Shown here in pieces: positions 196-64,000 of a stretch of 64,000 nucleotides of DNA. Origin of the DNA: Providencia zhijiangensis (GTDB lineage Bacteria; Pseudomonadota; Gammaproteobacteria; Enterobacterales; Enterobacteriaceae). The translations under genes and the position numbers were made by a program. The notes under the pieces were generated by a model that did no database searches, had not been told where the DNA came from, and saw only the letters and a program-made list of their open reading frames with translations. The stretch covers positions 2,666,001-2,730,000 of the forward strand of contig NZ_CP135990.1 in the NCBI RefSeq assembly GCF_030315915.2, read 5' to 3'. Each line of letters begins with the position of its first letter. Within the stretch, counting starts at the first letter, position 1.

Positions 196-226
196 CAATT
201 CGCTTAATTCTTGCTAAAAAAGAAAA

Positions 227-1654: not shown

Positions 1655-1831
1655 CATGACCTCTTTTTGTTTTGTCCAGCGGGGCCGCCGAATAAACGAA
1701 TTTTCCACTGGTAAAGTACACACCGCAAGCAGTTTACAGAATTGTTAACATCCTGAAAAGGCTGAATACGTGACGTAACTCCCAACCTTTCGTTGCAACA
1801 GCGAAAAACTCTGCCCCAGCCTAAATAAAAC

Positions 1832-1853
1832 AGACCGGTCAATTGACCGGTCT
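1832..1853 (-). terminator. 22-bp palindrome between aceF and lpd, likely terminator or attenuator
   Basis: A perfect 22-bp palindrome with arms AGACCGGTCAA and TTGACCGGTCT lies 6 bases past the aceF stop and is followed on the minus strand by GTTTTATTT. It could partially terminate aceEF transcripts while lpd is also read from a promoter in 1655-1830; independent lpd transcription is known in E. coli. No confident promoter boxes were picked. Confidence 0.65.
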
Positions 1854-1859
1854 TATTAG

Positions 1860-3722: not shown

Positions 3723-3735
3723 TGATTATTACCTC

Positions 3736-6402
3736 TTATGCCAAACGTGGGTTAACTTTATCTGGGTTGATGTTGTATTTTTTAATCGCTTCTTCAACGA
3801 CTTTAACATCAATCTCACCACGTTTAGCCAATTCACCTAACGCTGCAACGATGACATACGTTGTATCCACTTCGAAGTGGTGACGCAGGTTCTCACGGCT
3901 GTCAGAACGACCGAAACCGTCAGTACCTAATACACGGTACTCAATTGCTGGAACATAAGTACGGATTTGTTCAGCGAACAATTTCATGTAATCAGTCGAT
4001 GCAACAGCTGGCGCATCATTCATAACTTGCGCGACATAAGGTACACGTGGCGTTGCTGATGGGTGCAGCATGTTCCAACGCTCACAGTCTTGACCATCAC
4101 GAGCCAATTCAGTGAATGAGGTTACGCTGTATACGTCAGAACCAATTCCATATTCCGCAGCCAAGATATCGGCAGCTTCACGAACGTGGCGCATCATAGA
4201 ACCTGAACCTAATAACTGCACTTTGCCTTTCTTGCCTTCGACTGAAGCCAGTTTATAGATACCTTTACGGATACCGTCTTCAACGCCTTCTGGCATTGCG
4301 TGCATGTGATAGTTCTCGTTCAGAGTCGTGATGTAGTAGTACACGTTCTCTTGTTTCTCACCATACATACGCTCTAAACCGTCTTGCATGATAACCGCAA
4401 CTTCGTAAGCGTAAGCTGGGTCATAAGAAATACAGTTAGGGATAGTCAGTGATTGAATATGGCTATGACCATCTTCGTGCTGTAAGCCTTCACCGTTCAG
4501 TGTTGTACGACCAGAAGTACCACCGATCAGGAAGCCACGAGCTTGTTGGTCACCTGCTGCCCACATTAAGTCACCAATACGTTGGAAACCAAACATAGAG
4601 TAGTAGATATAGAATGGGATCATCGGCAGGTTGTTGGTGCTGTATGATGTTGCAGCAGCTAACCATGAAGAGCCCGCACCCAGTTCGTTGATACCTTCTT
4701 GCAGGATCTGACCTTTAGAGTCTTCTTTATAGTAAGCAACTTGCTCACGATCTTGCGGAGTATATTGTTGACCTTTCGGGCTATAGATACCAATTTGACG
4801 GAACAGACCTTCCATACCGAAAGTACGTGCTTCGTCAGCGATGATTGGAACTAAACGCTCTTTGATCGAGTTGTTTTTCAACATGACATTCAGTGCGCGG
4901 ACGAATGCGATTGTTGTTGAAATCTCTTTAGATTGTTCTTCCAGTAATTGACTGAAATCTGACAGAGCTGGAATTTCCAGTTTTTCATCAAATTTAGCGC
5001 GACGAGCTGGTAAGTAACCACCCAGAGCTTGGCGACGTTCGTGCAGATATTTGTATTCTTCAGAATCTTTATCGAAAGTAATTAATGGCAGTTTTTCGAT
5101 TTGATCATCAGCAACTGGTACATTGAACTGATCACGGAAGTGGCGAACGCCGTCCATGTTCATTTTCTTAACTTGGTGAGCAATGTTTTTACCTTCTGCT
5201 GTTTCACCCATACCATAGCCTTTGATGGTTTGAGCTAAAATAACAGTTGGTTTGCCTTTGGTTTCTTGCGCTTTTTTGAATGCTGCATACACTTTCTTCG
5301 GATCGTGACCACCACGGTTCAGCGCCCAAATTTCGTCATCAGTCATATCTTTCACTAATGCAGCCGTTTCTGGGTAACGGTTGAAGAAGTGTTCACGCAC
5401 ATATGCACCATCGCGTGATTTAAATGTTTGATAGTCACCGTCAAGGGTTTCGTTCATCAATTGAACCAGTTTGCCGGTTGTATCTTTACGCAGCAGTTCG
5501 TCCCAACGGTCACCCCACATAACTTTGATAACTTGCCAGCCAGCACCACTGAAGATACCTTCTAATTCGTTAACGATTTTGCCGTTACCTGTTACTGGGC
5601 CATCAAGACGTTGCAGGTTACAGTTAATAACGAAGACTAAGTTATCTAACTTATCGCGAGTTGCGATAGTAATTGCACCTTTAGATTCTGGCTCATCCAT
5701 CTCACCATCACCTAAGAACGCATAAACACGCTGTGCTGAAGTATCTTTCAGACCGCGGTTATCCAAATATTTTAAGAACTTAGCTTGGTAGATAGCATTG
5801 ATTGGACCCAGCCCCATCGATACAGTTGGGAACTGCCAGAAATCAGGCATTAATTTAGGATGCGGATAAGAAGACAGACCGTTCCCACCAATTTCTTGAC
5901 GGAAGTTATTCATCTGCTCTTCAGTTAAGCGACCTTCTAAGAATGCACGCGCATAGATACCAGGGGAGATATGGCCTTGGAAGAAGACTAAATCACCACC
6001 GTCATTATTGTTATGAGCACGGAAGAAGTGGTTGAAGCAAACTTCATATAAAGTTGCGGAAGACTGGAATGATGCCATATGACCACCCAGTTCTAAATCC
6101 TTTTTAGATGCACGCAGAACGGTCATTACAGCGTTCCAGCGAATTGCAGAACGGATACGGCGTTCTAAATCCATGTTACCAGGGTATGCAGGTTCATCTT
6201 CAACAGCAATTGTGTTGATATAATCAGAACTACCAGATGCACCAGCGGCAATGTTAACACCGCCTTTACGTGCTTCGCTTAATACCTGTTCGATAATAAA
6301 CTGTGCACGATCAACACCTTCTTCACGGATGACCGATTCAATCGCCTGTAGCCAGTCGCGAGTTTCAATCGGATCCACGTCATTTTTTAACATATCTGAC
6401 AT
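3736..6402 (-). CDS. aceE: Pyruvate dehydrogenase E1 component
   Basis: Homodimeric thiamine-diphosphate E1 that decarboxylates pyruvate and acetylates the lipoyl arms of AceF. The TPP/Mg motif GDGEMDEPES lies near residue 230 and ends in the expected VFVINCN. At 888 residues the length equals the Enterobacterales E1 (887 in E. coli), and the N-terminus (MSDMLKNDVDPIETRDWLQA) is typical. It is followed by aceF after 13 bases. Expression is expected to be controlled by PdhR; the 178-base gap to pdhR contains a long hairpin. Confidence 0.98.
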   Translation of the reverse strand: MSDMLKNDVDPIETRDWLQAIESVIREEGVDRAQFIIEQVLSEARKGGVNIAAGASGSSDYINTIAVEDEPAYPGNMDLERRIRSAIRWNAVMTVLRASKKDLELGGHMASFQSSATLYEVCFNHFFRAHNNNDGGDLVFFQGHISPGIYARAFLEGRLTEEQMNNFRQEIGGNGLSSYPHPKLMPDFWQFPTVSMGLGPINAIYQAKFLKYLDNRGLKDTSAQRVYAFLGDGEMDEPESKGAITIATRDKLDNLVFVINCNLQRLDGPVTGNGKIVNELEGIFSGAGWQVIKVMWGDRWDELLRKDTTGKLVQLMNETLDGDYQTFKSRDGAYVREHFFNRYPETAALVKDMTDDEIWALNRGGHDPKKVYAAFKKAQETKGKPTVILAQTIKGYGMGETAEGKNIAHQVKKMNMDGVRHFRDQFNVPVADDQIEKLPLITFDKDSEEYKYLHERRQALGGYLPARRAKFDEKLEIPALSDFSQLLEEQSKEISTTIAFVRALNVMLKNNSIKERLVPIIADEARTFGMEGLFRQIGIYSPKGQQYTPQDREQVAYYKEDSKGQILQEGINELGAGSSWLAAATSYSTNNLPMIPFYIYYSMFGFQRIGDLMWAAGDQQARGFLIGGTSGRTTLNGEGLQHEDGHSHIQSLTIPNCISYDPAYAYEVAVIMQDGLERMYGEKQENVYYYITTLNENYHMHAMPEGVEDGIRKGIYKLASVEGKKGKVQLLGSGSMMRHVREAADILAAEYGIGSDVYSVTSFTELARDGQDCERWNMLHPSATPRVPYVAQVMNDAPAVASTDYMKLFAEQIRTYVPAIEYRVLGTDGFGRSDSRENLRHHFEVDTTYVIVAALGELAKRGEIDVKVVEEAIKKYNINPDKVNPRLA

Positions 6403-6445
6403 GGTGTATTCCTTATCTGTTATCTATTTTATATGGTTATGTGGA

Positions 6446-6498
6446 GCCTATCTTCCTGCCATTTTCTTCATGTTAATGAAAACAGCGGGAAGATAGGC
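6446..6498 (-). repeat. Long hairpin in the pdhR-aceE intergenic region
   Basis: GCCTATCTTCCTGC (6446-6459) pairs with GCGGGAAGATAGGC (6485-6498) through 14 bp including one G-U, enclosing an inner hairpin TTCAT/ATGAA (6467-6471 and 6476-6480). It lies in the transcript 43 bases before the aceE start and lacks a U-tract, so a role in mRNA processing or stability is more likely than termination. This is inference. Confidence 0.6.
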
Positions 6499-6580
6499 CC
6501 TGATGTAGTTGCCGCTTTATCTCTAACTAAGAGTACTCACAGTAATGTAGACGCAGCAGTCAGGATCTACACTACCAATT

Positions 6581-7357
6581 TTAAATCTGGTCTAGATCTG
6601 GATGTTGCTGTAAGCGACGTAGTGAACGCTCTCGGCGAGTCTGCTCACGTCCAATGTCCAGCAGCAAATCTTCAATAAAAGCAAGATGTCGATGAGACGC
6701 TTCTCTCGCTTTTTCAGGTTCCCTTGCGACAATAGCGGAAAAAATCTGTTCTCTATGCTCGCTTACTGCGTTGTACATCTCTTTACGGGTATATAGGAAC
6801 TCAAAATTCTGGCGGATATTTTGCTCTAACATAGGGATCATGCAACGTAGCAAATGTAACAGCACTACATTATGAGCAGCTTCCGTTACAATCAGTTGAT
6901 ACTGTAATACCGCATCTGATTCCGCGTTAAGATCACCACTTTTCTGAGCTGATTTAATCAACTCATAGCTTTGGCGAATACGCTCTAAATCTTCTTCCGT
7001 ACCACGTAATGCCGCATAGTAAGCAGCGATGCCTTCTAATGCATGACGCGTTTCAAGAAGATCTAATTGAGATTCTGGGTTACCAGCAAGTAATTCGGTC
7101 AATGGGTCACTAAAACTTTGCCACATCTGTTTTTGTACAAATGTGCCACCACCTTGACGACGAGATAGAAGACCTTTAGCTTCTAAGGTTTGAATAGCTT
7201 CACGCACTGATGGTCTTGAGACATCAAATTGCTTAGCAAGTTCACGTTCAGGAGGCAGCTTTTCGCCGGGGCGTAAAGTCCCCTCGAATATGAGATGCTC
7301 AAGCCGTTGCTCGATTACATCTGATAACTTTGGTTGGCGAATTTTACCGTAAGTCAT
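6581..7357 (-). CDS. pdhR: GntR-family repressor of the pyruvate dehydrogenase operon
   Basis: Pyruvate-responsive repressor. The N-terminal winged helix-turn-helix (residues 1-75, with [20 protein letters not shown] then SVREAIQ) is followed by a C-terminal all-helical FCD effector domain containing the conserved ETRHALEG and [10 protein letters not shown] segments. It is 258 residues against 254 in E. coli. It is the first gene of the minus-strand cluster ahead of aceE, with a consensus PdhR operator 52 bases upstream, so autoregulation is expected. Confidence 0.97.
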
Positions 7358-7409
7358 AATCTGCCATTTTCATAGTGAGTAATTATTGATTATCTAGTAC
7401 CCAGTGTTA

Positions 7410-7424
7410 ATTGGTCATACCAAT
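7410..7424. promoter_or_regulatory. PdhR operator
   Basis: ATTGGTCATACCAAT matches the known PdhR consensus ATTGGT-N3-ACCAAT exactly, with the dyad extending one base each side (7409-7425). Its place just upstream of pdhR indicates feedback control by pyruvate-free PdhR. Confidence 0.9.
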
Positions 7425-7425
7425 T

Positions 7426-7957
7426 ATTTTATGGCTTAATAAAGTAACAAAGTATTCACTATCTGTCCATAAAGACCTTGAGCTAAATCATAAAATCCTG
7501 CAAGTTTTAACGGTTTATTTTAAAAAAAGCATTAATTAATAACCAAGCCTTGATTAAACAACACACAAATTTAACAAAAAATATGACTTTTTATGCCACT
7601 GAAATTAAAACTGAACCGTTACAGCTTACCAATTATTGCATGCATAATCACAAGATATGAATAAAAACTCAAGGAGTAAACATTGCGCATATTTTTATAA
7701 AAAAACGCCATGACCATAGTTAATGATTTGTTAAATTCATGGTTAGCAAAAATATACTTACGTAATTAATCATATGAAAACTGCATACCAATGGTAAAAA
7801 GTATCCCGTAAATATTCAGTACAATTCAATAATCATTAATGTGTGTTCAAAAGACTATGATATCTATGTAGTCATTCCTTTTTAGGGGGAAGACTTAAAA
7901 TCTATCGACCTCCCCCTTATCTTTGTAACCTCACGGTATAGCTTAAATCAGCTTAGA
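7426..7957. other. Non-coding gap between pdhR and nadC
   Basis: About 530 AT-rich bases with no open frame I can support. E. coli has aroP and ampE in this neighbourhood; no trace of either was recognised. The only clear structure is the GC-rich inverted repeat at 7884-7917 next to nadC. Confidence 0.6.
7884..7917 (-). terminator. Possible nadC terminator
   Basis: AGGGGGA (7884-7890) pairs with TCCCCCT (7911-7917), 40 bases past the nadC stop. The minus-strand side lacks a good U-tract, so termination efficiency is uncertain. Confidence 0.45.
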
Positions 7958-8863
<906 letters not shown>

Positions 8864-8948
8864 TTACTCCAAAATATGCACCCGTACGGATCTCAATTAT
8901 GCTAATCTTTCTTAATTACGGGTACTTACAAAAAGAAAAGAGCATACT

Positions 8949-9497
8949 ATGGATACTGATATGAAAATACATGATGGTTGGTTAAATAATGTGACTCATA
9001 TCCCTTCCCCACATCATGATGACCGCCCTGAGGGCGAAGAACCTTCACTTCTTGTCATTCACAATATCAGCCTTCCACCAGGACAGTTTGGTGGTTCTTA
9101 TATTAACCAACTATTTACTGGCACTTTAAATCCCGAAGAACACCCTTTTTTCGATGAAATTAAACATCTACGTGTTTCAGCTCATTGCCTCATCCGTCGG
9201 GATGGCGAAATTATTCAATATGTTCCTTTCAACAAGCGTGCATGGCATGCAGGGCAATCTAATTATCAAGGGCGAGAAAAATGTAACGACTTCTCTATTG
9301 GCATCGAGTTAGAAGGTACGGATTATGAAGCCTTCACTGAAGCTCAATATATAACTTTAGCCAAGCTCACTAAGTTACTGATAACTGAATTCCCGCAGAT
9401 CGAACAGAATATTACAGGTCATAGCGATATTGCTCCCCATCGAAAAACTGACCCAGGCCCTTACTTTGATTGGCGGCACTATAAAAACGCACTCTAA
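8949..9497 (+). CDS. ampD: 1,6-anhydro-N-acetylmuramyl-L-alanine amidase
   Basis: Cytosolic zinc amidase that removes the peptide from anhydromuropeptides during wall recycling; loss of AmpD derepresses ampC where ampR-ampC is present. The zinc ligands sit in VIHNIS (His38), TGHSDIAP (His about 157) and KTDPGP (Asp about 167). At 182 residues it is near the E. coli length (183). A start at 8961 (MKIHDGW) is also possible. ampE, normally directly downstream, is missing. Confidence 0.96.
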   Translation: MDTDMKIHDGWLNNVTHIPSPHHDDRPEGEEPSLLVIHNISLPPGQFGGSYINQLFTGTLNPEEHPFFDEIKHLRVSAHCLIRRDGEIIQYVPFNKRAWHAGQSNYQGREKCNDFSIGIELEGTDYEAFTEAQYITLAKLTKLLITEFPQIEQNITGHSDIAPHRKTDPGPYFDWRHYKNAL

Positions 9498-9543
9498 GCT
9501 TTCCCAATTAATAATTTTTACGAATTATCCGCCTATTATCTTA

Positions 9544-9571
9544 GCTAATGAGGGTAACCGCCCCCATTAGC
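9544..9571 (+). terminator. Hairpin downstream of ampD
   Basis: GCTAATG (9544-9550) pairs with CATTAGC (9565-9571), enclosing a GGG/CCC inner pair. It sits 47 bases past the ampD stop with only a weak pyrimidine tail (CCCTCTTCC). It may be a terminator separating ampD from ppdD. Confidence 0.4.
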
Positions 9572-9794
9572 CCCTCTTCCTGATATGCCTCTATTTATAT
9601 CAGTCTGAAAAACTCATTTTTATTAGAAAAAATATTCTTGGTATATTTTTGCGAGAACGCTCGAAATAAAATGAGACAACTCACCGTTTGCAAGAACATT
9701 TTACAAAGCCACTCGTAACCTGAATTTTCAATTCGTATTTTCACTAAAAAACTCTTTTATGATGCAGCCTCACACTATCAAGGAGGTTTTATTT

Positions 9795-10220
9795 ATGGAT
9801 CAGAAGGGATTTTCTTTAGTCGAAATCATGGTTGTTATTGCAATTATCTCAATACTCAGCGCCGTCGCTATACCGGGTTATCAAAGCTATATGCAAAGAG
9901 CCGCAATGACTGATGTACTACAAACGATCTTGCCTTATAAAAACAGTGTGGAACTGTGCAGCTTTAACCAAGGCCTTTTAGCCAAATGTAATTCAGGAAA
10001 AGAAGATATACCGAGCAATATAAAAGGAAAATATCTAAAACAGATTGATGCGAAAGCAGGCGTCATTACCTTTGTTGGTGACAAAACATTAACAGGTCTT
10101 ACGGGTATTTTGACACCCACTAACTCAACAGCCACATCACCATTTTCATGGAGTATCAGTTGCCAAGCTGATACTAATGCAGATCTAAAAAAACTTTGTG
10201 AAAAAACACTGAGCTTCTAA
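9795..10220 (+). CDS. ppdD: Type IV major prepilin-like protein
   Basis: Prepilin for a type IV pilus or pseudopilus. The N-terminus MDQKG-FSLVEIMVVIAIISIL has the PilD-type cleavage site (G5/F6), the invariant Glu at +5 of the mature protein and a hydrophobic helix that anchors and polymerises the pilin. Two C-terminal cysteines (near residues 120 and 131) probably form the D-loop disulfide. The start at 9795 is set by AGGAGG at 9781-9786; an in-frame ATG at 9759 has no such site. First of ppdD-hofB-hofC. In E. coli this set is usually silent; expression here is unknown. Confidence 0.93.
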   Translation: MDQKGFSLVEIMVVIAIISILSAVAIPGYQSYMQRAAMTDVLQTILPYKNSVELCSFNQGLLAKCNSGKEDIPSNIKGKYLKQIDAKAGVITFVGDKTLTGLTGILTPTNSTATSPFSWSISCQADTNADLKKLCEKTLSF

Positions 10221-10233
10221 TTAAGGGATTAAC

Positions 10234-11628
10234 ATGCGGACATCTAAGGAAAGCCATTATATTTTCAAAGAACTCAAAGTGCTTTGTGACAAAAACTATA
10301 TCGTGATTATCGATTACAACGAAAAAAGGTTATCCATCGCCACGATAGAAAAACCCAATGACAATTTATTATCCACATTACGTTTTATTGCCAGCGTTCC
10401 TGTTTGTTATGAAATATGGCCTAAAGAAAAAATTGATCATTATTTCAATCGCCATGTTTTAGAAATCAATGAAGATGAAAATAATTATCAGGCTAACACT
10501 ATTGAACCTATCAACGTGGCATCTCCTGCCGTTGATTTTGTCGATGATTTATTAAAGATGGCAGTAAGAAAGCGTGCATCTGATATTCACCTTGAACCAA
10601 CCAAACATAACCTAAAAATTCGCCTTAGAGTGGATGGAAAACTCTACGTTATCCCTTCACCACCCCATGAAATAAACAGTGAGGTTATTGCCCGAATAAA
10701 AATATTATCAAAAATGAATATTGCGGAAAAAAGAATACCACAGGATGGACAAATGAATTGGAGCTTTGAGCGAAAGAACTTTAGCATCCGTCTTTCCAGC
10801 ATGCCCACACTTCATGGCGAGAAATTAGTTCTGAGATTATTAAATACTCAGCTAAAATACTCTCTTGAACAAATTGGGATGTGCCCGACTTTATTACCCC
10901 TATTAAAAAACACATTAAAAAAACCGCAAGGATTGATTCTCGTGACGGGCCCCACTGGTAGCGGGAAAACTGTCACACTTTATAGTGCACTGGAATACCT
11001 TAATCAAACATCAAGAAATATATCCACCATTGAAGACCCTATTGAGATCCCCCTTGGGGGGATCAACCAAACACAAGTACACGAAAAATATTCACTGACT
11101 TTTGCGTTTATTCTTCGTGCACTACTTCGGCAAGATCCTGATGTTATTATGATTGGTGAAATTAGAGACGAAGAAACTGCTCAAATAGCAGCTCGAGCAG
11201 CACAAACAGGGCACCTTGTTCTATCAACACTTCATACTAATTGTACTGTCAGTGCCATTACACGCATGGAGCAACTAGGCGTTGACAGAAATCAACTTCA
11301 ATCTTGTTTAAAAATGGTTATCGCTCAGCGCTTAGTGAGAAAACTTTGCACATACTGTAAACAAGAAACGGTACATATTACTCCGATAAACTCAATGCAG
11401 AATATTAACGAATACCACTCTACAGGGTGTGAACACTGTTTTTCTGGGTTTATGGGGCGCACTGCAATTTATGAATACCTCGATCAAGCACAGCTCGATT
11501 TAATATTAAAAGACAATGGTAAATTAGCTGATAATTTCAAAAATCTATTTCAAGCAAGTCTTGAGCGAGTCGAAGCTGGAGAAACAACATTACAAGAAAT
11601 TTATTCTGTTATCGGACAAGGAGAGTAA
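10234..11628 (+). CDS. hofB: Type IV pilus assembly ATPase (GspE/PilB family)
   Basis: Hexameric secretion ATPase that would power prepilin polymerisation. It carries a Walker A GPTGSGKT near residue 239, an Asp box, Walker B-like MIGEIRDEETA, a His box (LVLSTLHTN) and a tetracysteine zinc motif (CTYC and CEHC). It is 464 residues, as in E. coli HofB (461), so shorter at the N-terminus than PilB proteins. Fourteen bases after ppdD and immediately before hofC. Confidence 0.94.
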   Translation: MRTSKESHYIFKELKVLCDKNYIVIIDYNEKRLSIATIEKPNDNLLSTLRFIASVPVCYEIWPKEKIDHYFNRHVLEINEDENNYQANTIEPINVASPAVDFVDDLLKMAVRKRASDIHLEPTKHNLKIRLRVDGKLYVIPSPPHEINSEVIARIKILSKMNIAEKRIPQDGQMNWSFERKNFSIRLSSMPTLHGEKLVLRLLNTQLKYSLEQIGMCPTLLPLLKNTLKKPQGLILVTGPTGSGKTVTLYSALEYLNQTSRNISTIEDPIEIPLGGINQTQVHEKYSLTFAFILRALLRQDPDVIMIGEIRDEETAQIAARAAQTGHLVLSTLHTNCTVSAITRMEQLGVDRNQLQSCLKMVIAQRLVRKLCTYCKQETVHITPINSMQNINEYHSTGCEHCFSGFMGRTAIYEYLDQAQLDLILKDNGKLADNFKNLFQASLERVEAGETTLQEIYSVIGQGE

Positions 11629-11632
11629 ATTA

Positions 11633-12817
11633 ATGTTTATCTATAATTACACCTCACTTGAAAATAATTCGTATATAACTGATAGCTTAGTGGCAAAAAA
11701 TAAACAACAAGCTTTTTTAGATATAATTAAACGAGGACAAACGCCAATATCCATAAAGTTTAAATCTATATTTATATTGGACAAGGAAAATTTAAACTAC
11801 AGAATTCATTTCTTCCATCAGCTAAATATACTATCTTCATCAGGAATCAGTTTATTAAAATGTTTTCAATTACTTCAACTTAATTGTCATTTACCCTTTT
11901 GGAAGAACCTCATTAATCAAGCAATCAATGATTTAGAAAAGGGTATTAGTTTTATTAAGAACTTAGAAAGTCACCCACGTATTTTTAATAGTACAATAAT
12001 TAGCTTAATCGCAATCGCCGAAAAAACGGGAAAATATGATGAAAGCTTTTTGATCATCAAGAATATGCTTGAACATAATCAAAAAACATCAATCTTAATA
12101 AAAAAAGCCTTGCGTTACCCAGTTACCCTCGTAGGGTTCTCTGGCCTATTACTTATCATTATGCTGGTTTTTGTCATTCCGCAGTTTGTTGATATTTACG
12201 AAAGCTTTCAACAGGAATTACCATCCATAACTAAGGTAGTTATTATCATATCGGATACTCTGATTGAGAATTTTCAATGGCTACTATTAACACTGTCCAC
12301 CACTATATTCTTATTTATTAAATATAGGTCATATGTATCCAGAAAACTGAGCCATTTAATGCAATATCTTCCTTATATCAATAACATCATCAGAGCCAAA
12401 AATTTGAACATCTACTTTTTAACATTATCTTCCACATTAAAATCAGGATTACCCCTCATTGAATGCCTTGATTGCTCAACTAAAACGATAGTGCATCATA
12501 AATACAAGGAAGAATGTCATGAAATTTATCACTCCGTTCTTAGAGGAGCTTCATTATCCGATGCAATGAAAAATACTCAGCTCTTTCCAAAATTAGTAGT
12601 TCAGTTAATTTCCTTGGCGGAAGAATCTGGCAAGCTAGAGTATTTTGCAGTATATTTATTTAAGTATTATTCAAGGCAATATAAGACCATTACGGAGCAT
12701 CATCTTAAGAGCCTTGAACCTATATTACTCTTATTTATAGCTATCATTATCTGCCTAATAATGTTTGCTATGTATTTACCAATATTTAAATTAGGCTCAG
12801 TCATTTCTGGAATGTAG
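11633..12817 (+). CDS. hofC: Type IV pilus inner-membrane platform protein (GspF/PilC family)
   Basis: Polytopic inner-membrane platform of the pilus assembly system with two GspF repeats (about residues 60-180 and 260-380) and three hydrophobic segments, the clearest being GLLLIIMLVFVIPQF and the C-terminal LLLFIAIIICLIMFAMYL. The start at 11633 (MFIYNYTS) is favoured by AAGGAGAG at 11618-11624; an upstream in-frame codon at 11561 lies inside hofB. 394 residues, near the E. coli length of 400. Notably AT-rich compared with flanking genes. Confidence 0.92.
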   Translation: MFIYNYTSLENNSYITDSLVAKNKQQAFLDIIKRGQTPISIKFKSIFILDKENLNYRIHFFHQLNILSSSGISLLKCFQLLQLNCHLPFWKNLINQAINDLEKGISFIKNLESHPRIFNSTIISLIAIAEKTGKYDESFLIIKNMLEHNQKTSILIKKALRYPVTLVGFSGLLLIIMLVFVIPQFVDIYESFQQELPSITKVVIIISDTLIENFQWLLLTLSTTIFLFIKYRSYVSRKLSHLMQYLPYINNIIRAKNLNIYFLTLSSTLKSGLPLIECLDCSTKTIVHHKYKEECHEIYHSVLRGASLSDAMKNTQLFPKLVVQLISLAEESGKLEYFAVYLFKYYSRQYKTITEHHLKSLEPILLLFIAIIICLIMFAMYLPIFKLGSVISGM

Positions 12818-56468: not shown

Positions 56469-56501
56469 CACTGTTCCTTAATCATTCATCTTCTAATACT
56501 A

Positions 56502-56520
56502 AACAGTACTGAATACTGTT
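56502..56520. promoter_or_regulatory. Operator-like dyad upstream of speB
   Basis: AACAGTA (56502-56508) and TACTGTT (56514-56520) form a 7-bp perfect inverted repeat around a 5-bp centre, 34 bases upstream of the speB start. Size and position suit a repressor site; no known regulator consensus was matched. Confidence 0.45.
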
Positions 56521-56587
56521 CATAGAAAGGTAAATTAACTAGTACTTACAATAGGTTATAAAGCTTATAGGCGTATATTCTAGCTTT

Positions 56588-57075
56588 GTTGTACATGAGT
56601 TTTACGCGATTATATCAGGGTATAGTACTGGAACATAGCTACCATCTTATAGAGAACAATATGAACTCTCAGCGAAGTTACTGCCTTTTAGGACTTGAAG
56701 TTTTTTGAGGCAGGGTAAGCAGGTAGTTTTTATGAAAAAGTGTCCAATGGGTCAACAGAGGTATTAAGAGATACATTATTACCATTGGACATTTTATACT
56801 GATTAATGATCACCAATCAGGATTATTGATCATTAAATCAATATCACTATTGAGTTTATCAATTAGCTCCATTAGTACTGAACCCTAACCCAATAAAACC
56901 TATCATTATTGTTAATTAGCTTTTGTACTCATATCATAATTAATTATGTTGTATATGAAATATATCAGTACTGATAGGGTAGTGTTTTGATTCGCCTAAA
57001 ATGAATTTTGATGTGAACTCACGGCAAAGTTACCTGCCTTTAGTACTCGAATTATTGTAATTCAGGGGGAGTATA
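56588..57075. repeat. Imperfect direct duplication, about 120 bp, 350 bp apart
   Basis: Segments near 56588-56715 and 56948-57070 share, in order, GTTGTAyATGA, TATATCAG, AGTACTG, then TGAACTC-CrGCrAAGTTA-C(C)TGCCTTT-AG-ACT. In both the TACTGCC or TACCTGCC is followed about 25 bases later by a complementary GGCAGGG or CAGGGGG, so each could fold as an RNA stem-loop. Confidence 0.6.
56735..56795. repeat. 61-bp inverted repeat, left copy
   Basis: The reverse complement of this segment matches 60970-61030 at 58 of 61 bases. Each copy has its own 10-bp inverted ends TGTCCAATGG and CCATTGGACA around a 31-bp centre. Here it is non-coding; the other copy lies in the 3' end of the primase-helicase gene. 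Confidence 0.9.
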
Positions 57076-57527
57076 CTGATTTTATTAATACTTAAAGTAA
57101 TCCCTTACTAAAGTAAAAAACAGTTCTGTTTTTATATCAAAGAGATAAAAAATTAAGTACATAATATATGTGTGTAATGAAATTTCAGTACTTGATATAG
57201 ATAATTAGAATTAAAGAATAAGGTAATTAAATAACAATCGAAAGTATTATTTAAAATAAAGTAATTATACTTCCATTACTTATTTTATCTTAATTTTATT
57301 TTTACTTTTAACAATAGAAATAAAATAGCACCCCATTAGTTTTAAAAGTACAAATATATAATATAACCAGTTGTTTTTATTGCATTTAAATTCGACATTT
57401 ATTTATGGTGAAATTTATTAATGAAAGTATTGCATTTATTTTTTAATTTTGATATCGTTAATAAAAGCATAAAAATAGACATGTTAAAACACTATCCTGT
57501 GTTTTACAATTTCGAATACAAAAACTA

Positions 57528-57578
57528 AAAAAACCACCTGAGCGTACATATTATACATGACACAATAGGTGGTTTTTT
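57528..57578. terminator. Strong bidirectional terminator-like hairpin
   Basis: AAAAAACCACCT (57528-57539) pairs with AGGTGGTTTTTT (57567-57578). A smaller hairpin TAAAACAC/GTGTTTTA (57485-57492, 57499-57506) precedes it. No gene upstream on the plus strand was found, so it may end a small RNA. Confidence 0.7.
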
Positions 57579-57712
57579 CTATTACGTGGAAATTATAGAT
57601 GGATAATTTAACATCCCAAATCTTAGGATATATACTATTATAATAGAAGTAATACTAGTTTAGTCAGTATTTGAATCCTATAATTGCTTACACTCAAAAA
57701 TAGGATAATAAT

Positions 57713-58090
57713 ATGAAAACAATAGCATTAAAAAACTCAGAATATACATATATTTTAACTACTAAAGATAGCCTTAATGAAATTAATAAAAAAATTGGAA
57801 AGAAGCTATCAATAGCTTACATTAAGGCGTTATATGACAATAAAATAATCCAGTACCAACATTGGTATAATGGAGCTTGTAATCAATACATGGAAAGTAA
57901 CAATATACCTTCTCACATAGTTAAATTCATAAAAAATAATAAAATGAACACTTATACATTAATAAAGAATATAAAAATTAAATTTGGAATAGTAATATCA
58001 CCTCGTAGTGTTAATAACACTAAGAACACTAAGAATACTAAGAATACTAAGAATACTAAGAATACTAAGAATACTAAGAATATGGAGTAA
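57713..58090 (+). CDS. Hypothetical protein with C-terminal Thr-Lys-Asn repeat
   Basis: 125-residue basic protein, no family recognised. Two short regions look like helix-turn-helix or helical DNA-binding units (IGKKLSIAYIKALYDNK and YTLIKNIKIKFGIVISPRSV). It ends in seven TKN repeats encoded by the 9-bp tandem array. A Shine-Dalgarno-like AGGAT lies a few bases before the ATG. It precedes the primase-helicase gene by 263 bases and could be a regulator of it; that is inference. Confidence 0.6.
   Translation: MKTIALKNSEYTYILTTKDSLNEINKKIGKKLSIAYIKALYDNKIIQYQHWYNGACNQYMESNNIPSHIVKFIKNNKMNTYTLIKNIKIKFGIVISPRSVNNTKNTKNTKNTKNTKNTKNTKNME
58019..58081 (+). repeat. Coding 9-bp tandem repeat (seven units)
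   Basis: Seven copies of ACTAAGAAT (first with AAC) in frame at the end of the 125-residue protein. Being a multiple of three, copy-number change would lengthen or shorten the tail without frameshift. Confidence 0.95.
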
Positions 58091-58353
58091 CTAAAAAATA
58101 TAAAAAAAACAAAAAACAAAAAATTAAAACTTGGACTACTATATAAAATTAAATTATTACTTAATAAATTAATTTGTCAAACTTAATGAAATAGAACACC
58201 AATTCCAACCAAGCATATAATGCGTATACATTTAATTAATTTTAAAATATTACCGCATTATTCAAATCCTAAAGTTCATGATGGTTTGTTAAACTTTTAA
58301 TTGACGTTAGGATACTTAAAAAAATAAATCATTAATAATAAGGAAGATTTAAA

Positions 58354-61173
58354 ATGGAAATGATTTCTAATGAAAACGATGAAAATGAAAAAAAACTGTA
58401 CTTTACATGGTATAAAAACAAATATTCATCTGGAAATAAAAAATCAAAAGATATAATACATAGCAATCAATGTTGGAGTTCACTAGTTAAATATTTTTTA
58501 AATAAAAATGAATGGCTTTATTTTAATGCTTCAAATATGAATGAATATGAAAACGCTAAAAATAATTTTGATGGAATCATATTTGCTGAAATGGTTAAAA
58601 ATAAGGAAAGGAATAGTGATAATGTAATAAATCACTATGCGATAGTACTTGATATTGATGGGAATATGTCTATTAGTGACGTTAAAAATGAATTAAAAGA
58701 ATATGAATACTTACTCTACTCTACGGGTAGTCAAGGGTTAAAGAAAGGAGATCGTTTTAGAATTATTTTGCCACTACTAAACCCTGTAAGTAAAGATGAA
58801 TATAACAGTTATTCAGTATCATTGATGAGTATATTTTATTATTCTGATCCTTCATTTTGTAAAACATTACAATTACAATACTTACCTTTTATAAATAAAG
58901 CCTATGAATCAGAGTTCATTTCTGAACATAACCAAGGATCGTTTTTTGATATTACAAAATTAGAGAAAAATCAAATCATAGAAAATAAATTTAGCTCTGA
59001 TGTTTTTAAGAAAATTGAAAATAATTATATTTACGAAGTAGGGAATAAAGATGAAATATTGAAATTAATAATTGAGAAGAATAAAGGGAATTTAGGCTAT
59101 GATGAGAAATTAAAGTTAACCAGTAGTTTAAAAAATGCTGGTTATCAAGAAAATGATATTATAGAAACAATAGATTTAGTAAGTAAAATAGGTTCAAAAA
59201 ATTTCGGATTAGATATGTATAAAAAAGCTAACCCCTCTTATGGTAGTATATTTAGCTTAAGGAACTTCCTTCCTGAAAAAAGCAAGGTATTATTAAAGAC
59301 AAATGCTGTAATAAATGATGTTAATTCAACCTATGACTCTATTTATACTCTAAATGAAGATCAGTTTCTATCAGAAATTATTGATGAAATAGAATTTAAA
59401 GAAGGAATCAATTTACTAATTGGTAGCACAGGAATAGGAAAGAATTATGCTATGATGAAGAGAGAAAAAACAAAAATAATAACACCGTTAACATCTATTG
59501 TTGAGCAATCTGGGAGTAGCAATGATCTATATAAAAATAATATAGCCACATGGAATCAAATAAAAAACATGATGATTAATCCTAGCATATGTAAAGAATG
59601 GGATTTAGTAATAGATGAAGCTCATGGAATTATATTTGATTATGATTATAAGTATGAGACAATTGAAACCCTTCAGCAAGCTATTAAGCTTTTTAATAAA
59701 GTTATCTTTATGTCAGGAACAATAAAACCAGAATATTTTTCTAATATAAAATTTGAAACAATTAATAAAGTTACAAAAGCAGATAGTACTTTAAAACAGA
59801 TTCAAACTTACTTTTGTAAAAGTAAAGAAGATTCAATAATACGAGATCTAAAGAATAGTGAAAGAAAATCTATTCTATTGATAAATGATAAGGCAAAAGG
59901 AAAGTATATTGGTGAGCAATCAGGGAAAAAGTTTCTATTAGTTAATGCGGATCTTAAAAATGAAGAAAATGTAAAAGATTTATTTAGTAAAAGAATAATG
60001 GGAGATTATGACTGCATTATCGGTACTAATAGTATTGTAGAAGGTCTTAGTATTATTGATGAACTGGATGAGGTTGATATTTTCATTTGTGAAGAAACAG
60101 ATCCTGACAGAATTGAACAGTTCACCAATAGGTTTAGAAAAATAAAAAAATTAAAAAATGTAAATTACTACATTGATAGTAAAAGTATAAAAAAAATAAA
60201 TGATAATAATATTGAAAAAATTATAGAATCGGCAAAGGAACTTGCTAATGCACTTAAAAATTCATTTGATATTGCACAAAGCAACCAACAAAAAAATTCT
60301 TTCATTAAAACCTATCATATTAACAATGAATTAAATGTATATATTAAAAACAACGATTTTTATGTTAACTATAATATGATTGACCATCAAAGTTACGTAC
60401 ATAGAAAGGAAAAATCTAATAACGAATTCAGTTACTTCATGTCGAGACTTTTTGAATATAATTTCCAGATATTCCTTCCAATTTTTGACGATTACATGTC
60501 TAATGCCAATGTTGACATAAAGGAACTTAAAAAGATTGAAAAAGAATTAACTAAGGCAAATGAGAATAAAGAACTGAGTGAATTAAAAGAGTATTTTGAA
60601 AATGGAGTGCTTCCTGAAATTAAAGGAGATACTTTTTTAAAGTACAAAATAAAAATACAAGACATGAGGAGTAAAGGTTTAAATAACAATGATATACCAC
60701 ATGTAATTGATTCAATAATAGAGGATAGGGATTATGAGAATAAACTACTTAAAGATATAGAATATAATAAGACAAGTTGTCAATATAGGGATTTTGTCAT
60801 TTCTGAAGTGAATTGTTTAAAGTTTACACATAAAAATTTTGATTATATAAGATCAGTTGATGCTAAAACTATTGCAACTAACGTTGTAAGAATGGTGTTA
60901 TCTAAGGAATTCAATAATGATATAGATTTAATGATTACAAATTCTGATTGGAACTCTTTGATTAGTAAAAAAATGTCCAATGGTAATGATGTATCTCTTA
61001 ATACCTCTTATGACCCATTGGACACTTTTTTTGTAAAAAACACAATGGCAAGCAGAGTGATTAAAAAGTACATATCCTTAAGTGACTCAACTAAGATTAC
61101 TAAATCTAAAGAACGTATCTGTGCATATAGAATCCTTCATTTGTCATTAACAGGATTGAAATTAACCATTTGA
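58354..61173 (+). CDS. Replication protein: archaeo-eukaryotic-type primase domain fused to SF2 helicase
   Basis: 939 residues. The N-terminal 200 residues resemble primase-polymerase (AEP) domains: an acidic pair in VLDIDG (D100, D102), STGSQGLKKGDRFRIILPL (residues 123-141) with its conserved Ser and Arg. A helicase follows: GSTGIGKN (357-364, Asn in place of Ser/Thr of Walker A), DEAH (421-424), MSGTI, GTNSIVEG and QFTNRFR (589-595). The SF2 part recalls herpesvirus origin-binding-protein (UL9-like) helicases. A Shine-Dalgarno AAGGAAG precedes the ATG. Very AT-rich, unlike its neighbours. It probably initiates replication of a plasmid- or phage-like element. Confidence 0.72.
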   Translation: MEMISNENDENEKKLYFTWYKNKYSSGNKKSKDIIHSNQCWSSLVKYFLNKNEWLYFNASNMNEYENAKNNFDGIIFAEMVKNKERNSDNVINHYAIVLDIDGNMSISDVKNELKEYEYLLYSTGSQGLKKGDRFRIILPLLNPVSKDEYNSYSVSLMSIFYYSDPSFCKTLQLQYLPFINKAYESEFISEHNQGSFFDITKLEKNQIIENKFSSDVFKKIENNYIYEVGNKDEILKLIIEKNKGNLGYDEKLKLTSSLKNAGYQENDIIETIDLVSKIGSKNFGLDMYKKANPSYGSIFSLRNFLPEKSKVLLKTNAVINDVNSTYDSIYTLNEDQFLSEIIDEIEFKEGINLLIGSTGIGKNYAMMKREKTKIITPLTSIVEQSGSSNDLYKNNIATWNQIKNMMINPSICKEWDLVIDEAHGIIFDYDYKYETIETLQQAIKLFNKVIFMSGTIKPEYFSNIKFETINKVTKADSTLKQIQTYFCKSKEDSIIRDLKNSERKSILLINDKAKGKYIGEQSGKKFLLVNADLKNEENVKDLFSKRIMGDYDCIIGTNSIVEGLSIIDELDEVDIFICEETDPDRIEQFTNRFRKIKKLKNVNYYIDSKSIKKINDNNIEKIIESAKELANALKNSFDIAQSNQQKNSFIKTYHINNELNVYIKNNDFYVNYNMIDHQSYVHRKEKSNNEFSYFMSRLFEYNFQIFLPIFDDYMSNANVDIKELKKIEKELTKANENKELSELKEYFENGVLPEIKGDTFLKYKIKIQDMRSKGLNNNDIPHVIDSIIEDRDYENKLLKDIEYNKTSCQYRDFVISEVNCLKFTHKNFDYIRSVDAKTIATNVVRMVLSKEFNNDIDLMITNSDWNSLISKKMSNGNDVSLNTSYDPLDTFFVKNTMASRVIKKYISLSDSTKITKSKERICAYRILHLSLTGLKLTI
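60970..61030. repeat. 61-bp inverted repeat, right copy
   Basis: Within the 3' end of the primase-helicase gene, inverted relative to 56735-56795 (58 of 61 bases). The 10-bp ends TGTCCAATGG (60974-60983) and CCATTGGACA (61015-61024) are perfect inverted repeats of each other. Confidence 0.9.
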
Positions 61174-61224
61174 ATTTAAATGATTAATTTTTTGCTGTTG
61201 TAAACAGTACTAAGATAATTGATT

Positions 61225-61316
61225 GATCGATATTACCTATTGGTGAGCTTGATATTGATAGGCCTAATAGGTAATAACGATCGATATCATAAAATTGATC
61301 GTTATTATCGATCGAT
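61225..61316. repeat. Palindrome-rich segment with repeated ATCGAT
   Basis: TATTACCTATTGG (61231-61243) pairs with CCTAATAGGTAATA (61263-61276, one bulged T), and GATCGAT or CGATCGAT occurs three times (near 61226, 61279 and 61308). It lies in the 306-base gap between the primase-helicase and the Ner-like remnant and looks like an operator or origin. No gene was found in the gap apart from a minimal ATG-CTA-TTA-GCT-TAA frame at 61379-61393 behind AAAGGAG. Confidence 0.6.
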
Positions 61317-61479
61317 TGGTTGGGTTGTGATATGATAGATAGCATAAAATGATAAAATTTAATCAAAGGAGAATTAGCATGCTATTAGCTTAAAGATTAT
61401 AACCAAAACCGAACGCACGTAAGTTTAAACTACCTCCCTACGGAGGCATATCAAAACTCTAATTTGGGAAGTTCAATTA

Positions 61480-61671: not shown

Positions 61672-62244
61672 ATGGTTGGATTTATATTATTTTTATCTGT
61701 TTTTATCGCAGGTTTTTGTTTAATAAAAACATTTAAATGGTGTGAGTTTAATAATATAAAAGGTTTTTCAAAATTCATGGCATTATTACTATCTAGCTTT
61801 GTTTCTTTTGTAATTACTTTTTTTATAGGAATGTTTTGGCATAGTTATAGCCAAGGTGAATTCAAGCATCAAGACAAGAAATTTAGTTGTGACATATTTA
61901 TGTATGAGGGGGTTGCTTCAAAGCTAGATGCACCCAATAAAAAAATAGGGAAAAGTATTCCTATTGGTGGTGGTAGTTTAATATTAAAAAATGATTATTT
62001 TATTATTAAAGCTAATTCAAGTAGTGATGAATTTAAATCGCCACCATTAAGTCCTAATGAAAACCTAGATAAAGGGGTACTTAGTGCTAGTACACATGAT
62101 TATTCTACTCAAAAATCAATATACTATATGTTAAATACAGATATAAAAAACACATATGCCCAAATGATAATAACTGGGCCATTAAATAATAGAGAGAATA
62201 AAGTAATGGCAATGTCGGCAATGAATTGTAGAAGTAATAACTAA
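61672..62244 (+). CDS. Two-helix membrane protein of unknown function
   Basis: 190 residues, no recognised family. Hydrophobic segments at about residues 2-20 and 36-56, then a soluble domain of about 130 residues that probably faces the periplasm, rich in Ser, Asn and Lys. AAAGGA precedes the ATG. It follows the Ner-like remnant by 23 bases and is convergent with the resolvase gene. Could be cargo of the element; no function can be assigned. Confidence 0.6.
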   Translation: MVGFILFLSVFIAGFCLIKTFKWCEFNNIKGFSKFMALLLSSFVSFVITFFIGMFWHSYSQGEFKHQDKKFSCDIFMYEGVASKLDAPNKKIGKSIPIGGGSLILKNDYFIIKANSSSDEFKSPPLSPNENLDKGVLSASTHDYSTQKSIYYMLNTDIKNTYAQMIITGPLNNRENKVMAMSAMNCRSNN

Positions 62245-62299: not shown

Positions 62300-62860
62300 T
62301 CATTCATAAACAGATAATGATTTTTTAACTCTAAAAACGGTAGCCCGCCCACAATCACATAATTTAGCTATTTCATCCGCAGTATATTTTTCACTCTCTA
62401 GCATTTCAGTGATTTTACTATGAAGTACTGCATTCTTTTGTTTTCCTTTGTACTTTCCAGCCTTTTTAGCTATAGCAATACCTTCATCTCTTCTAGATGC
62501 AATAATACCTCGTTCAAACTCTGCAACTGCTCCCATCATGGTTAAAATTAGCCTTGAAGCGGGAGAATTATCAAAACTCATGTTGTTGTCTAAAAATTTA
62601 ACGGTTATTCCTTTTTCCACTAATTCATCCACTAGCGATAAGAGCTCTTTGGTATTACGGGCTAATCTATCGATAGACTTTGTAATGAGAGTATCACCTT
62701 GCCTTAAGTGCGATAGGAGTAATAGTAGTTCTGGCCTGTCGTTGATATTTTTCCCTGACACTTTCTCTTGGATCACTTTGTCGCAAACAGGCTCAAGTAC
62801 TGAAAGCTGCCTTTCTAAATTTTGATCTTTTGAAGAAACCCTTGCATAACCGAATATCAT
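62300..62860 (-). CDS. Serine resolvase/invertase (Tn3-resolvase family)
   Basis: Site-specific recombinase using a serine nucleophile. N-terminal catalytic domain with YARVSSKDQN (catalytic Ser9), DTLITKSIDRLARNTKELL (conserved Arg) and GAVAEFERGIIASRRDEGI, then a C-terminal helix-turn-helix (YTADEIAKLCDCGRATVFRVKK). 186 residues, resolvase size. The ATG at 62860 has AAAGGG upstream; an in-frame ATG at 62878 lies in the res-like arm. A res-like site lies just upstream. Confidence 0.9.
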   Translation of the reverse strand: MIFGYARVSSKDQNLERQLSVLEPVCDKVIQEKVSGKNINDRPELLLLLSHLRQGDTLITKSIDRLARNTKELLSLVDELVEKGITVKFLDNNMSFDNSPASRLILTMMGAVAEFERGIIASRRDEGIAIAKKAGKYKGKQKNAVLHSKITEMLESEKYTADEIAKLCDCGRATVFRVKKSLSVYE

Positions 62861-62871
62861 AAAAGCCCTTT

Positions 62872-62983
62872 GTATCATTTACTATATTTAAATGATACTG
62901 AATCATATAGATAGGATCAAGTACTAAATGATACTATTTTAGCTGAATTAGGTGGGTATCATTAGGGAGTAGCTGAATGATAC
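62872..62983. promoter_or_regulatory. Probable res site (three subsites) of the resolvase
   Basis: Five copies of GTATCATT or its complement AATGATAC in 112 bp. Subsite I 62872-62898 is a 27-bp repeat with 9-bp perfect arms (GTATCATTT/AAATGATAC); subsite II about 62899-62934 (ATCAT and AAATGATAC, about 35 bp); subsite III 62956-62983 (GTATCATT/AATGATAC, 28 bp). Sizes match the 28/34/25-28 bp design known for Tn3-type res sites. Confidence 0.75.
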
Positions 62984-63110: not shown

Positions 63111-64000
63111 ATGGCTTTTAATTTAACCAGAATGAGTGTCTATGCGTTAATTAGTTCATTAGAAGAAGATCTGCGAGCTATCATTACGACATACTTAGAG
63201 AATGAAGCTTTAAATGAGGTTATCTCTACTGATTTGAAGAGCAGAGCTAAACAACGTTTAGAAAAAGATATTGGATTTTCATTTGATGATGTTTCACTAT
63301 CAGATTTAGTTGATTATTTTGATCTGGGTGACACTTATCAGGTTATAAACTCTAACTTTAATAAAATCCCAGAACATATATCTAGCTATGTAAGAAAAAA
63401 AACGAAGGGTTTTGATAAACTAATACCCATAAGAAATAGAGTTATGCATATAAGACCATTGGATGTAGATGATTATCCAACTACGTTCACTTTTTGTCAT
63501 CAATTAATTGAAACAGAAAAAACAGTCTGGTCTAATCTATCAAACATAATTGATATTATTTCCGTTAATCCAAGTTATGTACTTGGTTTAGATATTAAAA
63601 GTTATGAGGATTCCTATGAGAATCATAATTTACCTTTTCCTGATTTCGATGAAACAGGCCTTATCGGTCGAAATGAAGATGTAAATAAAGTTAAGCAGCT
63701 TTGTTATGGTCCATTTCCTGTAATATCAATTGTTGGTGAAGGTGGTGTTGGTAAAACCGCTCTAGCCTTAAAAGTTGCATATGAAATTTTAGAAGATGAG
63801 AAAAACCCTTTTGACGCTATAGTTTGGGTCTCATCTAAAACTACGCAAATTACAGTTAATGAAATAAAAGAAATTAAGGATTCTATTACCACATCTATTG
63901 GTGTTATTAGTGAAATTTCAAATCAATTAACTGGTATGTCGCCATCACAAGCTGGCATAGAAGAAATTATTGAATATTTATCCACATTTAAAATAGCACT
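63111..64000 (+). CDS. HEPN-domain NB-ARC (STAND) ATPase, N-terminal part, cut by window end
   Basis: 296 codons, open at the right edge. The N-terminal 150 residues (MAFNLTRMSVYALISSLEEDLR start) look like a Swt1-type HEPN domain with the RNxxxH catalytic motif (RNRVMH, R108-H113), expected in ribonucleases. A STAND ATPase follows: LIGRNEDVNKVK near 184 and Walker A GEGGVGKT (209-216), then FDAIVWVSSKT typical of NB-ARC. Proteins with this layout are known or suspected abortive-infection anti-phage defences, where a sensor domain at the C-terminus, not visible here, triggers RNA cleavage. TAGGG precedes the ATG. Confidence 0.78.
   Translation, partial: MAFNLTRMSVYALISSLEEDLRAIITTYLENEALNEVISTDLKSRAKQRLEKDIGFSFDDVSLSDLVDYFDLGDTYQVINSNFNKIPEHISSYVRKKTKGFDKLIPIRNRVMHIRPLDVDDYPTTFTFCHQLIETEKTVWSNLSNIIDIISVNPSYVLGLDIKSYEDSYENHNLPFPDFDETGLIGRNEDVNKVKQLCYGPFPVISIVGEGGVGKTALALKVAYEILEDEKNPFDAIVWVSSKTTQITVNEIKEIKDSITTSIGVISEISNQLTGMSPSQAGIEEIIEYLSTFKIA

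Follow-up and report, generated by a model that had tools for sequence, protein, structure and literature searches.

A probable stem-loop replication origin at the rep gene of a Providencia island, with further copies in its att-bearing inverted repeats

The window studied here is a stretch of 64,000 nucleotides of Providencia zhijiangensis (contig NZ_CP135990.1, positions 2,666,001 to 2,730,000 of the forward strand), and it ends within an 11.1-kb insert between speB and speA, at the 3' end of speA. The insert carries genes for a replication protein (Rep), a tyrosine integrase (Int) and a serine recombinase as well as two pairs of inverted repeats, and a sequence of 61 nt (the 61-mer) occurs in it three times, once inside the coding end of rep. 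We argue that the 61-mer is probably a stem-loop replication origin of the adjacent rep gene, with extra copies in the inverted repeats that bear the putative integrase attachment (att) sites.

Results

Positions 56735-56795 and 60970-61030 of the window form an inverted pair of 61 nt. A preliminary description of this DNA had given 58 matching bases of 61 and identical 10-bp inverted ends, and both points hold: repeat search and direct count found 3 mismatches, and both copies end exactly in TGTCCAATGG/CCATTGGACA. The inverted match of the pair extends to 123 bp at 85% (E 2.6e-30) and is beyond chance. The pair had also been said to flank a primase-helicase gene; one copy does lie in the coding end of that gene, but the pair is not private to rep, because a search of the host genome placed a third copy at 2731787-2731952, which is 1787-1952 bp beyond the window end, in the partner arm of a 685-bp inverted repeat. 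This third copy is on the opposite strand, is identical to copy 1 over 166 bp and has the same orientation as the copy in rep. The core of the 61-mer is a 51-bp stem-loop with 10-bp arms and an AT-rich loop of 31 nt, so that inverted boxes stand around an AT-rich spacer, a feature of the OriS type. Folded as single-stranded DNA, the rep copy (z -5.6) and a copy in the genome of Edaphovirga cremea (G048; z -5.3) were much more stable than shuffled sequences.

The latter copy came from a DNA pattern search for TGTCCAATGG-N28..34-CCATTGGACA in 84,980 species genomes and in viral contigs. Four stretches were found in the species genomes, and the single one with a 31-base loop is that of G048, where it lies in the 3' coding end, and in the same frame, of a Rep 44% identical to the 939-aa Rep. 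The other three span 49, 50 and 53 bp in unrelated organisms, and by our own estimate one or two such matches are expected by chance; no stretch in the viral contigs fitted the pattern. These counts rule out a small dispersed repeat, and the scattering over unrelated loci that had been named as a warning sign was not seen, the only match with a 31-base loop being again in rep.

Stem-loops of this build also stand at the 3' ends of related rep genes. Our sample comprised 30 loci, namely 25 viral loci with Rep relatives and the genomes G000 (the host), G048, G043, G096 and G074; the Rep relatives L017-L019 and L100, the Pantoea plasmid L101 (interrupted by an insertion sequence) and the matches H2-H6 were outside the count. 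Perfect inverted repeats, with 10 bp or more in each arm and a loop of 20-40 bases, were looked for within -500 to +150 of the rep stop; 24 of the 30 loci have one, and 100 randomisations that kept neighbour frequencies gave a mean of 0.37 and a maximum of 3. Between the rep stop and +150 alone there were perfect repeats in 20 of 30 loci versus 0.12 in randomised sequence, and as a control the stretch from -10 to +150 held one at 17 of 25 viral rep stops versus 4 of 66 other open frames. In the remaining six loci (L073, L074, L076, L077, L093 and G043) the repeats are imperfect, with at most 2 mismatches in 13; judged by eye, the loops of L073 and G043 are like that of L072, those of L074, L076 and L077 are like that of L075 in loop and position, and that of L093 resembles one of the L070 loops in reverse.

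The Reps of G043, G096 and G074 are without the 61-mer sequence, and directly past the rep stop G096 and G074 have another inverted repeat, of 54 bp, whose AT-rich loop is similar. Arm sequences vary by lineage yet stay paired, and the several copies in L070 differ in their arms but hardly in their loop, so that pairing seems to matter more than arm sequence. In four pairs of related hairpins 2-3 stem positions differ, always on both sides; perfect arms had been preselected for this comparison, which excluded single changes beforehand, and it covers chosen members only (L092 and L087 were left out and L071/L072 dropped because their arms were out of register), but the excess over randomised sequence is independent of that choice. 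The loops share an AT-rich core of the TAATNAT..CTTAATAATAGA type in a loop alignment (A4) of 20 of 25 rows in which the arms are shifted against each other and from which L078, L082, L085, L088 and L094, of ambiguous orientation, were left out.

Not all sites face the same way. The loops of L083, L090 and L092 are reversed (scores of 58-60 versus 38-41, with the 95% point of the null at 50), and the phage contig L094 has two inverted copies of its stem-loop, at offsets +10 (the rep 3' end) and -4724 (about 4.7 kb upstream). Because of these reversed loops and the inverted upstream copy, the site is more likely to act as DNA than as part of the rep message. An intrinsic terminator is ruled out, since the loops of those sites that are nearest the stop measure 22-33 nt, some sites lie within genes and three are reversed. 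The antisense control pair of the preliminary description fares no better. The transcript of a non-coding copy would indeed be complementary to rep mRNA, as the copies are by sequence, but the third copy is oriented as the rep copy, the site falls past the stop codon in 20 of 30 loci with three loops reversed, and no Rfam family matches positions 1-12000 of the host locus (L004, in which position x is window position 56000+x). We therefore regard RNA control of this kind as highly improbable.

Rep itself was not recognised by Pfam, PHROGs or NCBIfam, nor by phmmer against PDB, and a Rep-based search for related loci in genome contigs gained nothing. Residues 73-199, which raise the question of an archaeo-eukaryotic primase (AEP) domain, match a phage "putative primase" by sequence and gave no Pfam hit. 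A structural model built from 21 sequences has a mean predicted local distance difference test score (pLDDT) of 82.7 and a predicted template modelling score (pTM) of 0.54; an earlier model from two sequences had a pLDDT of 36.6. In a structure search with the model, residues 324-719 align with superfamily 2 (SF2) helicases. The origin-binding protein of herpes simplex virus 1 (HSV-1) was found with a Z of 18.3 and a root mean square deviation (rmsd) of 4.4 over 354 residues; none of the other 49 alignments listed was as long, but its Z was tied with other SF2 rows. In a viral fold library giant-virus and phage "replication origin-binding protein" and primase-helicase models were among the best matches. 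The modelled helicase core thus appears to resemble origin-binding helicases by distant fold similarity; aligning with SF2 helicases, it differs from the superfamily 3 (SF3) helicase with a winged helix of pRN1. The residues encoded by the 61-mer include 876-885, one of four stretches with a pLDDT below 50, and because of this low confidence Rep is predicted to tolerate the embedded DNA site in a loose segment.

The repeats that hold the other two copies belong to the island as a whole. Comparison of L004 with itself gave two inverted pairs, one of 685 bp (489-1173 with 9505-10188, 99.4%) and one of 111 bp (10181-10291 with 11477-11587, 100%). Int (404 aa, L004 10308-11522, with the Pfam Phage_integrase and SAM-like domains) lies between the two 111-bp repeats. 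The core TCTTCTAA is present at both island ends, and five of the 24 genus genomes (G588, which is of the same species, G568, G090, G567 and G580) have an uninterrupted CATTCATCTTCTAAGTAAGTG between the two genes; at speA-speB the other genomes have three islands, 15 other gaps of 81-462 bases and one unresolved case. With a core at both ends and a single core in uninterrupted relatives, the insert is, on its sequence, an integrase island that rebuilds the speA end. The speA-speB gap of G581 (L057) has about 100 bases like the short att arm next to speA and no island, likely the scar of an older one.

At L004 10181-10188 the 685-bp arm is joined to the 111-bp arm across the same core, in inverted orientation, as expected of the attP junction of a closed island, and the island thus appears to hold a second, inverted att-like site inside. 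On paper the excised circle would have two inverted repeats of about 790 bp, each with an att core, separating Int from the rest. The att cores are flanked by CAGTACTG boxes, and AGTACT occurs 6 times in the 685-bp arm versus 0.41 expected. In the phage contigs L074, L076 and L088 a second inverted-repeat family, built on GCCAGTACTGAAC, recurs downstream of rep with the same CAGTACTG box as the island att cores and arms. A DDE transposon with terminal inverted repeats is not supported, the recombinases found being of the tyrosine and serine types and the 8-bp core being the att core. The nearest solved relatives of the serine recombinase are Sin/Tn552, invertases and Tn3/gamma-delta resolvases. 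Features within the window are collected in Table 1.

Table 1. Features of the island and of the rep gene within the window
Feature	Position	Strand	Remarks
Left arm of long inverted repeat (putative P arm of att)	56489..57173	+	Partner at L004 9505-10188, 1505-2188 bp past the window end, 99.4%
Outer left att core TCTTCTAA	56489..56496	+	8 bases; same at the speA end of the island; once in the uninterrupted site of relatives
61-mer, copy 1	56735..56795	-	In the left repeat arm, within a decayed rep 3' end; stem-loop core 56741-56791
125-aa open frame	57713..58090	+	No family found; contains a 9-bp tandem repeat
rep (Rep, 939 aa)	58354..61173	+	SF2 helicase core, primase-like N-terminal part, C-terminal domain
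61-mer, copy 2	60970..61030	+	In frame within the rep coding end; core 60974-61024; encodes residues 873-893
Non-coding region 3' of rep	61177..61377		Nested inverted repeats of GATCGATA type; rival or additional candidate origin region
190-aa open frame	61672..62244	+	Common to G575
Serine recombinase	62300..62878	-	Resolvase/invertase type; kept in all three islands
Putative res site	62872..62983		Upstream of the serine recombinase; three spaced GTATCAT..ATGATAC-like sub-sites, by eye; conserved stretch
774-aa NB-ARC/TPR ATPase, start	63111..64000	+	Continues to L004 9435; putative defence cargo

Int was found in three of the 24 genus genomes, G000, G575 (97%) and G573 (60%), and all three have an island at speA with both inverted pairs (791 bp at 98.5% and 111 bp at 100% in G575; 705 bp at 99.7% and 99 bp at 100% in G573). 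The long arm of G000 matches that of G575 at 94% and, over part of the arm, that of G573 at 73%. The arms are thus far more alike within than between islands, and recombination or copying seems to keep them equal. Compared with G000 and G573, the G575 island has its main segment inverted, with the flanks and Int in place; these orientations come from different genomes. Absence of the left copy from homologous elements had been named as a result that would speak against the pair; the copy is present in G575 and absent in G573.

Outside these islands, an Int relative of 59% identity is on 24 conjugative plasmids, 19 of them from Providencia and the rest from Proteus and Morganella. In the three plasmids inspected (two of them nearly identical), Int lies between perfect inverted repeats of 98-99 bp with a complete att-like site adjoining and one long arm missing. 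In a sample of 198 genomes of the family, Int reached E 1e-60 in G000 alone, no similar DNA was found in E. coli genomes, and G583 (L031) was discarded as a relative, being a chance match in a phage.

That copies 1 and 3 might have no role has to be weighed here. The long arm contains a decayed rep 3' end with in-frame stops, and its homology to rep reaches past the 61-mer; this extended homology rules out a small transposon-like insert. It fits the idea that a dead piece of rep was caught as the inverted repeat spread and has since been kept alike by gene conversion, copy 2 alone having a role, and the likeness of arms within an island (98.5-99.7%) as set against that between islands points the same way. 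In three comparisons (p 7e-4, 0.0012 and 0.017) the 61-mer has nonetheless changed less than the sequence around it. Between the decayed piece and the rep copy 3 of 61 positions are changed in the 61-mer versus 23 of 87 in the adjoining stretch (Fisher p=7e-4); on plasmid pPROV013 1 of 61 is changed with a surrounding match of 86%, and in the G575 repeats 0 of 61. Gene conversion of the arms would also leave the likeness to the rep copy and between islands unexplained, and we consider a dead piece unlikely.

The preliminary description had further suggested recombination sites. Its left copy does lie within an arm of the putative integrase attachment site, but for the 61-mer itself the suggestion looks wrong. 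If Int or the serine recombinase used the 61-mer for recombination or as an accessory site, its place in an att arm would fit, as would the presence of both recombinases in islands whose Reps differ. The phage relatives, however, have the stem-loop at rep, yet a search of phage records at E 1e-20 gave no Int relative, and viral contigs gave no close one; the serine recombinase has a res-like site of its own elsewhere, which rules out the 61-mer as the resolvase site; and G573 has both recombinases and no 61-mer. We think such a function very unlikely.

The remaining contents of the islands differ. As cargo there is the NB-ARC/TPR ATPase in the host (L004 7111-9435), a NACHT protein in G573 (L030 10094-12361) and a nucleoid-associated NA37 protein in G575 (L022 6690-7796), and some of this cargo looks like phage defence. 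On the plasmids L039 and L041 the cargo between the integrase module and the res-like stretch has been exchanged (a sulfatase pair versus a lyase and a permease). The 9-bp tandem repeat at window positions 58012-58092 yields the NTKNTK tail of the 125-aa frame. In the G573 island a second-type rep is split into two frames (L030 5495-6963), so that this island may not replicate by itself. Tandem arrays stand 3' of the second-type rep in G575 (L022 9839-10699, 163 bp x5.3) and in G573 (L030 7210-7607, 199 bp x2.0) and are possibly iterons.

Discussion

The above results point to the 61-mer as a probable stem-loop origin of the rep gene at whose end it stands, a reading that draws on the analogies with pRN1 and HSV-1 set out below. 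Among the three roles first suggested for the pair, that of binding sites of the replication protein, taken as a cis site of Rep, is the best supported: the stem-loop is perfect in 24 of 30 loci and imperfect in the other six.

Several observations weigh against an origin. The repeat copy folds less markedly as single strand (z -2.9). The codons that the two motif-bearing reps have in common say little, since 187 of 354 identical residues use the same codon in any case; we dropped codon identity as proof, the 61-mer window not being among the most alike. There are near-duplicates among the 30 loci (L073=G043, L081=G096, L087~L091, and L074-L077), although 22 of 24 clusters at 90% identity have a perfect repeat. 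Imperfect repeats with at most 2 mismatches in 13 occur at 25 of 25 viral rep ends and also in 61 of 191 control windows; for this reason the six imperfect sites carry little weight, and perfect repeats alone are counted as evidence. The G575 island keeps the site in its repeats though its Rep is a different helicase-like protein, and G573, of the same architecture, has no copy of the 61-mer, so that the repeat copies need not serve Rep. The 5' end of Int is at the outer att site in all three islands and in three plasmids, and an inversion of the Int segment was not seen. No free circle of the island was among the matches of our Rep, Int and DNA searches (plasmids, phage records, E. coli and viral contigs).

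G575 shares the non-coding region that follows rep, and G573 its right three quarters; this conserved region could be the real origin. In that case the stem-loop may be a single-strand initiation (ssi) or primase start site, like ssi of RSF1010 (such sites are described in excerpts of PMC4234260), with a separate double-strand origin such as this region. Arms that vary while the loop is kept are what single-strand recognition would lead one to expect. In pRN1, on the other hand, the stem-loop alone, without the flanking region, restored replication, and we judge an ssi site rather improbable. Taken together, the points from G575 and G573, the conserved region, the constant orientation of Int and the lack of a free circle among the matches weaken a role of the repeat copies more than they weaken an origin linked to rep.

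For a rep-linked origin we infer the following course of events. Rep would recognise the 51-bp site of inverted arms around an AT-rich loop, open it as a hairpin or bubble and prime there, the working copy being the one at the 3' end of rep, here within the coding end. Copies 1 and 3 would be the same site in the two 685-bp repeats, placing an origin beside each att site. Recombination between the repeats, by Int or by homology, would invert segments of the circle, and an inversion during replication could make two forks chase each other and so lead to the double-rolling-circle amplification known from the yeast 2-micron plasmid. Multimers would be resolved by the serine recombinase with its res-like site. 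It is tempting to speculate that the island copies itself by such a 2-micron- or herpesvirus-like scheme, with Rep stem-loop origins in both att repeats, integrase-driven inversion leading to amplification, a resolvase returning unit circles and re-integration at speA, but we put this forward tentatively and with more doubt than the origin at rep. Possible to a similar degree is that the inverted att duplication is an inert accident that brings about neither inversion nor amplification, as the same orientation of Int in all copies seen might suggest. Against such an accident, three islands with Ints 60-97% alike have retained the duplication, the three inspected plasmids of 24 have retained its Int side, and one island has an inverted main segment.

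If the 61-mer is the origin, an uncharacterised replication protein of phages and islands (primase-like part and SF2 helicase) would have its own family of stem-loop origins, for which the 61-mer is a testable site. A conserved type of bacterial island is described as well: its repeats are inverted and bear att sites, and in two of three such islands they also contain an origin-like site. A layout of this kind enables the yeast 2-micron plasmid to raise its copy number; if the scheme were true, recombination-driven amplification would be a bacterial strategy too. Related integrase modules are on conjugative plasmids of Providencia, Proteus and Morganella. In the open-access literature, surveyed mostly by titles and abstract openings, we found no description of a bacterial 2-micron-like or inverted-attP element, nor of the stem-loop origin of this Rep among primase-linked origins and primase-helicase initiators. 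The earlier statement that no described element of this layout was known thus stands, within this survey, for such bacterial islands, but the site has close functional precedents in pRN1 and HSV-1 OriS, and the island has one in 2-micron.

In pRN1 a stem-loop after rep, a primase-helicase gene, is sufficient together with the replication operon, is required and can be relocated, both its loop and its pairing being needed, according to excerpts of PMC4234260 and PMC3869888. The sequence of pRN1-type stem-loops varies between relatives, and a similar one is in Bordetella phage BIP-1 (excerpts of PMC4234260). The candidate site described here is alike in standing at or after the 3' end of rep, perfect in the 24 loci counted above, and in keeping its pairing while the arm sequence varies. 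It differs in that the pRN1 Rep has an SF3 helicase and a winged helix, with a stem-loop of about 100 nt that lies after the stop, whereas here the core is of the SF2 type and the site measures about 50-60 nt, is sometimes within the coding end and has several copies in some loci.

HSV-1 has an SF2 origin-binding helicase, UL9, and an OriS with inverted boxes around an AT-rich spacer that forms a hairpin when unwound, and copies of OriS lie in the inverted repeats of the virus (excerpts of PMC12543377). The present locus shares the inverted boxes with an AT-rich spacer; its modelled Rep core is of the SF2 type, and copies of the candidate site lie in inverted repeats plus one elsewhere, inside the repeats in G000 and G575 and in none of those of G573. 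The HSV-1 hairpin, in contrast, pairs boxes 3 and 1 and not across the AT-rich spacer. The likeness of the helicases is one of distant fold only, the box motifs and the RVKNL recognition motif being outside the comparison, and to our knowledge UL9 has no primase domain.

The yeast 2-micron plasmid has 599-bp repeats with FRT sites and exists as two isomers (excerpts of PMC3147054 and PMC6594588). The island would share with it two inverted repeats of about 0.6-0.8 kb, each with a tyrosine-recombinase site, a recombinase gene in one segment and two expected isomers; in all three islands the sequence has two inverted repeats, each with a putative recombinase site, and in the host island the Int gene lies between repeats. 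The differences are that ours is an integrated bacterial element with att sites and an integrase, an additional serine recombinase and its own Rep, and that its free circle and amplification are predictions.

Ordinary tyrosine-integrase islands have a short core at both ends, restore the 3' end of the target gene and leave an empty site in relatives. The present island has in addition a second, complete and inverted att-like site inside, with Int between the two. Another bacterial replicon with long inverted repeats and a site-specific recombinase (beta) is pSM19035, which has a serine-type enzyme and six sites, is from Gram-positive bacteria and is not integrative. Elements with two recombinases and 13-19 bp repeats, as described in excerpts of PMC10214605, differ in layout from the island here. 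We thus place the candidate stem-loop, which goes with a Rep family that has no name as yet, among origins of the pRN1 and OriS kind, and the island among the integrase islands, in a 2-micron layout.

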